In this document: positions 3,178 to 6,881 of the stretch, one piece after another
How the letters are laid out: every line of letters begins with the position of its first letter
Numbering within the stretch: the stretch's first letter is position 1
Assembly: GCF_004366815.1 (NCBI RefSeq)
Contig: NZ_SORI01000022.1
Location: 1 to 47,024 of the forward strand
DNA length: 47,024 nucleotides
From: Aminivibrio pyruvatiphilus
GTDB taxonomy: Bacteria; Synergistota; Synergistia; Synergistales; Aminobacteriaceae
Direction of reading: 5' to 3'
Position numbers and translations under genes: made by a program
The notes under the pieces: generated by a model
What the model saw: only the letters and a program-made list of their open reading frames with translations
The model's database searches: none
Told to the model about the DNA's origin: nothing

Positions 3178-4266
3178 TCAGATTTTTTCGGGGGGAGTGA
3201 GGCCGAATTCGGCGGCGAAGTCCTTCAGCATTCCGAAGGTGGCATCGTCCAGGGGCACTCCCGTCTCCAGGGCCTCCTTCCTGCGGAGGGTCTCCTTTTC
3301 GCCGTGGACGTATACCCGCTCGTTCCCCTCGGAAGGAGCGGAGGAGCGGAGGGCGTCCAGCATTTCCCCGACCCGCCTGCGGATGTCCTTCTCGTCGCCG
3401 AAGAGGTCGAGCCTTGTGGCGGAGAAGAAGTGCCCCACGTTGGCATCCATGGTCTGGAAGACGTCCCGGGTCCAGGGACCTCCCGCCAGGGGGCCGCAGA
3501 GCATGTCCACCAGGACGGCGAGGCCGTATCCCTTGTGCCCGCCCATGAGCTCGCCGGCTCCTCCGAGGAAGAGCAGGCCTCCCCACTGTCCCGTGGGGTC
3601 CGCCAGAATGGACGTGGCCTCCGACGGATCGGTCACCGTTTCTCCCGACTCGCCCACGAACCAGCCCTCGGGCATCTCGAGATTCCGGCGCTTGTAGACG
3701 CCGAGCTTTCCCCGGGGGGCCGTGGTGGTGGCCATGTCGAGCAGCCAGGGAAGTTCGCCGTCGGAGGGGATGCCCACGGCGATGGGGTTGGTGCCGAGCA
3801 GGCGCTCCTTTCCCAGGGTGGGAACGGCGCACCGGATGGTGTTGGTGAAGGCGCTGCCCATGAGCCCTTCCTTCACCGCCATTTCGGCCCACAGGCCCGC
3901 CATGCCGAAGTGGTTGGAGTTCCGCACCGAGGCGAAGCAGGTCCCGTGGGCCTTCGCCTTTTCAATGGCTTTTTCCATGGTGAACTCCGAAATGTGGGCC
4001 CCCACGCCGTAATGGCCGTCCACCACGAGGGAGATGGGGGTTTCGTGGACAATTTCCGGGTCCTCTCCCGGCTTGACATGGCCTCCTTCAAGCTCGTTCC
4101 GGTAGACCTTGAGCCGGGTGACGCCGTGGGAGGACACTCCCCGGGCGTCGGCCTCGGCGAGGACCACTGCGGTGATCCTGGCCTTGTGCTCCGGATAGCC
4201 GATGTTCACCAGGATGGAAGCTGAAAGATCCACCAGCGCGCTGTACTTCATGCGATCATATGCCAC
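3178..4266 (-). CDS. LDH2-family (malate/L-lactate type) NAD(P)-dependent dehydrogenase
   Basis: 362 aa, full length for the LDH2/MDH2 family (COG2055), soluble NAD(P)H-dependent oxidoreductases that reversibly oxidise 2-hydroxyacids such as malate, lactate, sulfolactate or ureidoglycolate. Family hallmarks seen are 'AEADARGVSSHGV' near residue 37, the catalytic-histidine segment 'RNSNHFGMAG' near 115, 'LGTNPIAVGIP' near 160, 'LDMATTTAPRGKL' near 175 and 'GGHKGYGLAVLVDML' near 245. It starts with GTG; an in-frame ATG five codons later is an alternative. It is the first gene of the unit with larA and TRAP genes 14 bp downstream, which suggests the racemase feeds the enantiomer this enzyme uses. 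A homologous second copy lies at 9664-10749. Confidence 0.9.
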   Translation of the reverse strand: MAYDRMKYSALVDLSASILVNIGYPEHKARITAVVLAEADARGVSSHGVTRLKVYRNELEGGHVKPGEDPEIVHETPISLVVDGHYGVGAHISEFTMEKAIEKAKAHGTCFASVRNSNHFGMAGLWAEMAVKEGLMGSAFTNTIRCAVPTLGKERLLGTNPIAVGIPSDGELPWLLDMATTTAPRGKLGVYKRRNLEMPEGWFVGESGETVTDPSEATSILADPTGQWGGLLFLGGAGELMGGHKGYGLAVLVDMLCGPLAGGPWTRDVFQTMDANVGHFFSATRLDLFGDEKDIRRRVGEMLDALRSSAPSEGNERVYVHGEKETLRRKEALETGVPLDDATFGMLKDFAAEFGLTPPEKI

Positions 4267-4455
4267 GCAGAATCCCTGCCTTTCGGATTATTTCATCGTC
4301 CTCCAAAGGAGCCGGAAAAAGGCCCCCTGTTCCGCTCAGTGAAAAAGCCTTATGGTAACCGGCTTTTCAATTATACTGCCTCCCGCACCTTCTTTGGGAG
4401 AAAGGAATGGGAAGGCGGCAAGTGAAATGAATCCTTTTTTTCTTCGTTCCTTTGG

Positions 4456-4740
4456 CCCAAATCCGCAGGTTCTCCTGGCAGAGGGAGTGTCGCCGGGCAT
4501 AAGGTGAATTCGACCCGCTAGGGTCGAAGAGATCTCGCTCCGCGCACTTTGCGGAGATATCCCCTGGGGGACAGCGCCCGGGCCGAGAAACCGACATGGA
4601 TGTCGGTTTCACAAGCAGACAACCGGCGAACGAAGGGAGCCGAGTTGATCGCTTGGGCAGTTGTCAAGGACGACAATCTGCACCGGCGGCCCAAGCGAGC
4701 ACCGGTGACGCTCCCCGCTGCCTGCGGATTTAGGTTTGGG
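4456..4740 (+). ncRNA. Multi-hairpin structured element, probable structured RNA (HEARO/omega-RNA-like?)
   Basis: This gene-free stretch is rich in base-pairing. An 11-nt arm, AAATCCGCAGG (4459-4469), is exactly complementary to CCTGCGGATTT (4721-4731). Inside it further nested arms can pair: GGCAG 4477-4481 with CTGCC 4718-4722, GGGAG 4483-4487 with CTCCC 4711-4715, and GTC 4489-4491 with GAC 4707-4709. Enclosed hairpins are TTCGACCC/GGGTCGAA (4509-4528), CTCCGC/GCGGAG (4538-4556), GAAACCGACAT/ATGTCGGTTTC (4587-4610) and CGCTTGGG/CCCAAGCG (4650-4697) with TTGTC/GACAA nested inside. The plus strand is assumed because the closing stem and general layout recall HEARO or IscB/IsrB omega RNAs, but that likeness is from memory and no IscB, IsrB or TnpB reading frame is nearby. 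Alternatives are a mobile palindromic repeat or a leader of nadE. Confidence 0.5.
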
Positions 4741-4829
4741 GAAAGGAAAAGGGTAATGATAAAACCGCTGAATTGGTGTATTGTAGGGTCAAATGAGCTT
4801 TCGGAGGATCAGGGAGGTACGTTCCCGCC

Positions 4830-6881
4830 ATGAAGAAAGAATTCGCAAACCTGTACAGCCATGACTTCATCCGCGTGGCGGCCTGCGTTCCCGCCGTCAG
4901 GACCGCGGACCCTTCCCGCAACGCCGGGAAGACCATCGGGCTGCTCCGGGAAGCCTCGGACCGCAGGGCGGTGCTCGCGGTCTTCCCGGAGCTGGGGATC
5001 TCCGCCTACTCCTGCGGGGATCTCTTCTTCCAGGACGCCCTGCTGCGGTCAGCCCTCAAGGGGCTTGAAGCTGTCCTCGGTGCCTCGGCTTCCCTGGACA
5101 TGGTCATTGCCGCGGGAGTCCCGCTGAAGATCGGGGACGGTCTTTTCAACTGCGCGGCCGTCCTGTTCCGGGGCCGCATCCTCGGCGTGGCCGTCAAGAG
5201 CTTTCTCCCCAACTATCGTGAGTTCTATGAACTGAGGCATTTCAAGCCCGCCTCCGCCCTTCCCTCCGACACCCTGGACCTCCTGGGGCAGAAGGACATC
5301 CCGGTGGGAGCGGACCTCATCTTTGAAGCGGAAGGGATTCCCGGCTTCAGGCTTTTCTGCGAAATCTGCGAGGACCTCTGGACTCCCGTTCCGCCCTCCT
5401 GCTACGCCGCCCTCTCCGGGGCCACGGTGGCGGTGAACCTGTCCGCCTCGAACGTCACCACCGGAAAGGCGGACTATCGCCGGGCCCTCGTCGCCAATCA
5501 GTCGGCCCGGTGCATCGCCGCCTACGTCTACGCCGGGGCGGGACCGGGGGAGTCCACCACCGACCTTGCCTGGGACGGTCATGCCCTGGTGGCGGAGAAC
5601 GGGGAGATCCTGGCGGAGTCGGAGCGGTTCTCCCGCGAACCGGCCGTGACCCTGGCCGACGTGGATCTTGGCCGCCTTTCCAGCGACCGGGCGACCATCA
5701 CCACCTTCTCCGATGCCGGGGGAAGGACGGAGCGTCCCTCCTTCCGCAGGATCACCTTTCCCCTCGGCGCACCCTCGGGCATAATTCCCCTGGCCCGTAC
5801 CGTCCCCCGGTTTCCCTACGTTCCATCCGATCCATCCCTCCGGGAGCGCCGGTGCCGGGAGATTTACAGCATCCAGGTCCAGGGGCTCGCAACCCGGATG
5901 GAATCGTCGGGGATACGGAACCTCGTCCTCGGGGTGTCTGGAGGGCTCGACTCCACCCAGGCCCTCATCGTCTGCGCCAGGACCATGGACCTTCTGGGGC
6001 TGCCGAGGACGAACATCAAGGCCTATTCCCTTCCCGGCTTCGCCACCTCCGAAAAGACCGCCGCCAGCGCGCGGAAACTCATGGAATCCCTGGGGGTGGA
6101 GGCGGGGGAGATCGACATCCGGCCCGGATGCATGCAGATGCTGAAGGACATGGGGCACCCCTTCGCAGAAGGGAAGCCGGTCTATGACGTGGCTTTCGAG
6201 AACGTGCAGGCGGGGCAGAGGACGTCGCTCCTCTTCCGGATCGCCAACGCCAGGAGCGCCATGGTGGTGGGCACCGGCGACCTCAGCGAGCTCGCCCTCG
6301 GGTGGTGCACCTACGGCGTGGGGGATCACATGTCCCACTACAACGTGAACGCCAGCCTTCCCAAGACCCTCATCCAGTATCTCGTCCGGTGGGCCGCCTC
6401 AAGCGGAGTTCTCGGCAAAGAGGTGTCCCCGGTGCTGGAAGCCGTCCTCGGAACGGAGATCAGCCCGGAACTCGTCCCGGGATCGGCGAAGGACGGCCCC
6501 TCCCAGAGCACCCAGGCCGTCATCGGGCCTTACGAGCTGCAGGACTTCAACCTCTTCTACATCCTGAGGTACGGCTATCTCCCGTCCAAGGTCGCCTTCC
6601 TTGCGGAAGCCGCCTGGCGGGACGCGTCAAAGGGCGTGTGGCCGGACATTCTCCCCGGGCGGCGGACGGAGTACACCCCTGCCGAAATAAAGCACTGGCT
6701 TTCCGTCTTTCTCCGCCGGTTTTTCACCATGAGCCAGTACAAGAGGTCCTGCGTTCCCGACGGACCCAAAGTCGGTTCGGGAGGATCCCTTTCTCCCCGG
6801 GGCGATTACCGGGCCCCGAGCGACGGGAGTTCCGCCCCGTGGGAGGAGGACCTGGAGAACATCCCCGGCGGAGAGCGCTGA
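4830..6881 (+). CDS. nadE: Glutamine-dependent NAD+ synthetase
   Basis: 683 aa, the size of the two-domain enzyme that makes NAD+ from deamido-NAD+, ATP and glutamine. The N-terminal nitrilase-type glutaminase shows the Glu-Lys-Cys triad: Glu54 in FPELGIS, Lys123 in VKSFLPNY and Cys180 in EICEDLW. The C-terminal synthetase has the PP-loop SGGLDST near residue 374 and 'VGTGDLSELALGW' near 477, a motif of this family. Translation starts at an ATG preceded by GGGAGG at a normal distance. It lies just after the hairpin-rich element, and chrA follows 26 bp downstream, so the two may be co-transcribed although their functions are unrelated. Confidence 0.95.
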   Translation: MKKEFANLYSHDFIRVAACVPAVRTADPSRNAGKTIGLLREASDRRAVLAVFPELGISAYSCGDLFFQDALLRSALKGLEAVLGASASLDMVIAAGVPLKIGDGLFNCAAVLFRGRILGVAVKSFLPNYREFYELRHFKPASALPSDTLDLLGQKDIPVGADLIFEAEGIPGFRLFCEICEDLWTPVPPSCYAALSGATVAVNLSASNVTTGKADYRRALVANQSARCIAAYVYAGAGPGESTTDLAWDGHALVAENGEILAESERFSREPAVTLADVDLGRLSSDRATITTFSDAGGRTERPSFRRITFPLGAPSGIIPLARTVPRFPYVPSDPSLRERRCREIYSIQVQGLATRMESSGIRNLVLGVSGGLDSTQALIVCARTMDLLGLPRTNIKAYSLPGFATSEKTAASARKLMESLGVEAGEIDIRPGCMQMLKDMGHPFAEGKPVYDVAFENVQAGQRTSLLFRIANARSAMVVGTGDLSELALGWCTYGVGDHMSHYNVNASLPKTLIQYLVRWAASSGVLGKEVSPVLEAVLGTEISPELVPGSAKDGPSQSTQAVIGPYELQDFNLFYILRYGYLPSKVAFLAEAAWRDASKGVWPDILPGRRTEYTPAEIKHWLSVFLRRFFTMSQYKRSCVPDGPKVGSGGSLSPRGDYRAPSDGSSAPWEEDLENIPGGER

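Follow-up and report, generated by a model that had tools for sequence, protein, structure and literature searches.

Several described systems resemble the element analysed here in one respect or another. The pneumococcal BOX elements combine fixed end modules with internal hairpin modules that vary in number, fold strongly, carry terminal inverted repeats and target duplications, and have a resident IS proposed as their mover (PMC3049150). Our element shares this layout, but it lies in an unrelated host, is GC-rich and of unrelated sequence, has IS1380-type ends and 5-bp duplications, and contains a hairpin module that occurs phylum-wide. TIMEs, which derive from Tn3, are likewise small and non-autonomous, with the ends of an autonomous transposon, a foldable core and 5-bp duplications (PMC4133298), whereas the ends of our element come from an IS1380-type IS and many copies are present per genome. 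The IS1380 family (ISPsp9, ISPa33, ISEcp1), whose published members make 4- and 5-bp duplications (PMC4133298), resembles our system in transposase profile, where the NCBIfam score of the partner IS falls just short of the curated cut-off, and in the 4-5-bp duplications; unlike these IS, the element has no transposase, and its interior beyond the ends is unrelated to the IS parts read. The REP palindromes with their GTAG and CGTC tags are short, intergenic and present in many copies, with tandem and inverted clusters (PMC3733652), and in these features they resemble a single internal hairpin of the element, called R1 below. With HEARO, the omega RNA of IscB, there is only a general resemblance in the several nested hairpins.

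The window (the whole stretch of 47,024 nt that was analysed, from a Synergistaceae genome) carries the element at 4456-4734 on the plus strand (279 bp), in the gap between a divergent dehydrogenase gene on the left (3178-4266, minus strand) and an NAD synthetase gene on the right (4830-6881, plus strand). As the first-pass annotation had stated, no plausible gene fits this stretch, and there is no transposase-sized ORF inside. That annotation had set the limits at 4456-4740, which differs slightly from the true unit. The 5-bp sequence TTTGG stands at both 4451-4455 and 4735-4739 as a target-site duplication, so that the unit is 4456-4734. It is a non-autonomous element (MITE) whose copies at unrelated loci end identically. 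The left terminal inverted repeat is CCCAAATCCGCAG (4456-4468, plus strand; consensus CCTAAATCCGCAG) and the right one CTGCGGATTTAGG (4722-4734, minus strand). The exact 11-nt inverted repeat reported to close a 273-nt span, AAATCCGCAGG (4459-4469) and CCTGCGGATTT (4721-4731), agrees with the sequence, and the hairpins claimed within it are present. From left to right they are the module B hairpin TTCGACCCGCTAGGGTCGAA (4509-4528); CTCCGCGCACTTTGCGGAG (4538-4556), within an insertion missing from the aligned copies L002, L008, L009 and L021; the module A hairpin GAAACCGACATGGATGTCGGTTTC (4587-4610); a 46-nt hairpin of a dispersed, Synergistota-wide family (4611-4656, plus strand; 73.5 bits and E 2.2e-18 with model R1); CAGTTGTCAAGGACGACAATCTG (4658-4680); and the 3' core hairpin CACCGGCGGCCCAAGCGAGCACCGGTG (4681-4707). 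The last contains GCCCAAGC (4689-4696), the complement of a stretch at the R1 hairpin's end, GCTTGGGC (4651-4658). When folded, 4440-4750 reached -164.9 kcal/mol, compared with a mean of -119.0 for dinucleotide shuffles (z -7.9), and 0/100 shuffles folded as well. The reverse strand of the same segment folds equally well (z -7.7). Hence, the fold is uninformative on which strand, if any, is RNA, and it fits palindromic DNA as well as RNA.

A DNA search of the same genome (G000) found about 27 dispersed copies and at least six fragments of the element at unrelated loci, and it is carried by three of the five genus members (G000 and 2/4 congeners). A check set beforehand was whether copies at unrelated loci end alike, and the outcome was positive: the terminal inverted repeats CCYAAATCCGCAG/CTGCGGATTTAGG are common to the copies, with the exception of six (L025-L030) that lack them and are probably older. 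Perfect 5-bp direct repeats stand immediately outside 28 of the 33 end-bearing copies from three species, with a chance probability of about 1e-79. Searching the genus with joined flanks, we found a clean, uninterrupted empty site for copy L005 in three relatives (G001, G002 and G003), and for several other copies the joined flanks likewise gave contiguous matches. For the window copy no empty site is demonstrable, because relatives have extra sequence between the two neighbours. The distance between the dehydrogenase and NAD synthetase genes in relatives is about 2.5 kb (L105 in G001, L106 in G003), compared with 4266-4830 in the window; the gene between them in G001 encodes an FtsH-like AAA metalloprotease, and the window genome lacks this gene and has the MITE in its place. 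The first-pass annotation had also offered a mobile repeat as an alternative, and this reading is borne out by recurring copies with the same ends at unrelated loci, by compensatory stem changes and by the empty sites of sister copies. The genome assemblies are fragmented, and several are MAGs. A scan with 18-mers gave matches in Synergistaceae MAGs; a few isolated ones also came from one viral contig and from other phyla. These have at most 30 bp in common with the element and seem fortuitous.

Near many contig ends of the genome, at a distance of 106-118 or 164-176 bases, the end sequence of the element occurs again. Such a pattern is typical of an IS that the assembly could not resolve. The IS ends CCTAAATCCGCAC/G occur at about 16 contig ends of G000, all from one IS. 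Its transposase (P0001), read from the congener G002, matches Pfam DDE_Tnp_1_4 above the cut-off (E 1e-17) and NCBIfam IS1380 with E 3e-51 and 174.2 bits, just under the curated cut-off of 180. No complete copy of the IS was recovered in G000, where the small contigs C44-C62 were searched for its body, because the contigs break inside the IS. MITE and IS copies adjoin at contigs C16 and C13 with only a shared 5-bp repeat between them, and the 5-bp duplication of the MITE copies agrees with the IS1380 family value. Since the MITE ends are those of an IS1380-type IS, the MITE is most likely IS1380-mobilised, and our best inference from the sequences is that the IS1380-type partner transposase moves it in trans. 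An internally deleted IS1380-type element was seen in G003 (L078, C366), with about 810 bp between two ends and transposase fragments only.

The copies vary from 89 to 446 bp, with lengths of 89 bp (L021), 154-165, 211-213, 254-279 and 446 bp. The 446-bp copy (L017, C1:179372) contains about seven tandem units of ~48 bp, each holding a module B hairpin like that at 4509-4528. As in BOX elements, the copy number of internal modules varies between fixed ends. Among 20 MITE cores, 8/50 pairs show two-sided compensatory changes in the stems, which could also reflect selection on structure. One-sided changes gave G-U in 10 cells and A-C in 14, about equal numbers, and therefore no sign of one strand kept as RNA.

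These results bear on whether the element is an RNA. The first-pass annotation had likened the element to HEARO (omega RNA), which would make it a stand-alone guide RNA acting in trans. Many hairpins, dispersed copies and a protein-free interior agree with this or another guide RNA that works with a nuclease in trans, but a scan of the whole window gave no Rfam match above a family's gathering score, nothing HEARO-like appears at E<=10 in 4300-4840, and TnpB (PF07282) was not detected in G000, G001 or G002. Against it also stand the terminal inverted repeats of IS1380 type and the 5-bp duplications, which are marks of DDE transposition, and the stem changes without strand preference. The guide placed at 4435-4455 is ordinary left flank that ends in the target duplication. 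Judged by Rfam, the TnpB search and the marks of transposition, the guide RNA reading is largely refuted, and we regard it as almost certainly wrong. A nadE leader, also suggested, was dropped because the same element occurs at many unrelated loci. It is very unlikely that the interior is a functional small or regulatory RNA spread by IS1380 ends, with the end-less copies L025-L030 domesticated. The strength of the fold (z -7.9), the eight core pairs with two-sided changes, and the end-degenerate and end-less copies whose flanks correspond between G000 and G001 (one of each; L047/L042 and L019/L057) speak for this reading; the equal folding of both strands, the balance of G-U and A-C changes, the free gain and loss of modules, the lack of an Rfam family and the presence of the element in only 3/5 genus members speak against it.

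The R1 hairpin has a wider distribution. In a comparison of the window copy with 183 genomes of the class, only element bases 155-203 match in several other genera. A covariance model built from the 46-nt hairpin (R1) detected it in 35/183 of these genomes, belonging to 19/59 genera; the copies are often numerous (per-genome counts are minima) and include tandem and inverted groups. The alignment of 54 distinct sequences has 98.4% paired cells, and two-sided changes occur in 10/15 pairs, compared with at most 4 in slid-alignment controls, the alignments (A3, A4) having been fitted to the same model that found the sequences. G-U stands in 23 cells and A-C in one; this excess is suggestive only, since one variable pair accounts for 14 cells and model selection may contribute. 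In an irregular part of the stem, two purines co-vary (A3 columns 9/61: A-G 20 times, G-A 13 times, A-A four times, G-G never). A TTTCTTCATCA-like tail comes after the hairpin in 37/58 aligned sites, and, in contrast to REP palindromes, no conserved GTAG or CGTC end tag is found in these 58 sites. R1 has no Rfam family and was found neither in phage and plasmid collections by blastn nor in viral contigs by exact pattern. Judged by Rfam and the open-access literature, it is a repeat not described before that occurs across the phylum Synergistota. In one 3.6-kb contig (L175, G056:C177), R1 hairpins lie in repeated blocks, two of the hairpins in copies that are near-identical.

R1-bearing and R1-less copies coexist in the MITE family of the window and in two unrelated MITEs from other genera (G107, G006). 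In G107, empty copies are continuous across the site, and where the hairpin and its tail are present no multi-base duplication accompanies them. The MITE family of G107 and G108 (L145, L146, L278-L284) has ends near ATGACTNTTAAGTTGCCTCAGG and about ten copies in G107, with R1 absent from most and present in some. The MITE-like repeat of G006 (L164, L291-L297) has ends near GTAAACGTTCAAGCTCAGGGGGG, and its longer copies carry R1 and a second hairpin, CCGCGCGGCAGTTTGCGCGG. A Y1 (RAYT-type) transposase, the enzyme of the REP system, was found in 3/14 hairpin genomes tested and was absent from 11/14; no R1 lies near the Y1 genes at eight loci scanned or near the TnpB genes at 14 loci of relatives. 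RAYT/Y1 was rejected as the mover of R1 on the grounds of its absence from these 11 genomes and of the eight Y1 loci, none of which adjoins the hairpin.

R1 may be a mobile unit in its own right, or a module that repeats exchange through recombination. That R1 and its TTTCTTCATCA tail together form an independent unit, entering unrelated MITE interiors without multi-base duplication as single-stranded DNA or RNA read on one strand, and moved not by the known Y1/RAYT transposases but by another enzyme, is a tentative possibility. We think it unlikely that R1, as a REP-like single-strand transposon unit, is what matters at this locus and that the MITE is merely one of its carriers. Its occurrence in 35/183 genomes, the compensation of 10/15 pairs, the G-U to A-C ratio of 23 to 1 and its presence in some copies and absence from others in each of three unrelated MITE backgrounds would favour this view, but all three R1 matches of the window genome lie inside MITEs, most MITE copies are R1-less, no R1 stands beside the sampled Y1 and TnpB genes, and 11/14 hairpin genomes lack a Y1 transposase.

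Overall, the window element has multiple copies with common ends, 5-bp target duplications, precise empty sites and an IS1380-type partner, and these identify it, with a probability of about 0.9, as an IS1380-mobilised MITE that is a mosaic of palindromic modules, one of them from a phylum-wide hairpin family. In the open-access literature, this IS1380-linked MITE is probably undescribed. According to this model, an IS1380-type transposase would act in trans on the MITE ends and produce the 5-bp target duplication. The palindromic modules of the interior come and go and multiply in tandem, much like those of pneumococcal BOX elements. The module at 4611-4656 belongs to a separate phylum-wide hairpin family that is also found inside unrelated MITEs. 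On this view the element folds as palindromic mobile DNA does, and nadE or dehydrogenase transcripts would be influenced, if at all, only incidentally.

The analysis removes the false lead of an orphan omega RNA and puts in its place an IS1380-linked MITE that, outside streptococci, grows in modules as BOX elements do. For the most part the element is an ordinary MITE of known kind. The more interesting part, and the one for specialists to follow, is the R1 hairpin, which is 46 nt long, strongly covarying and dispersed, and which at least three unrelated MITEs contain in some copies and lack in others. As the known palindrome-moving enzyme is absent from most genomes tested, REP-like spread without a dedicated transposase is now a testable question.
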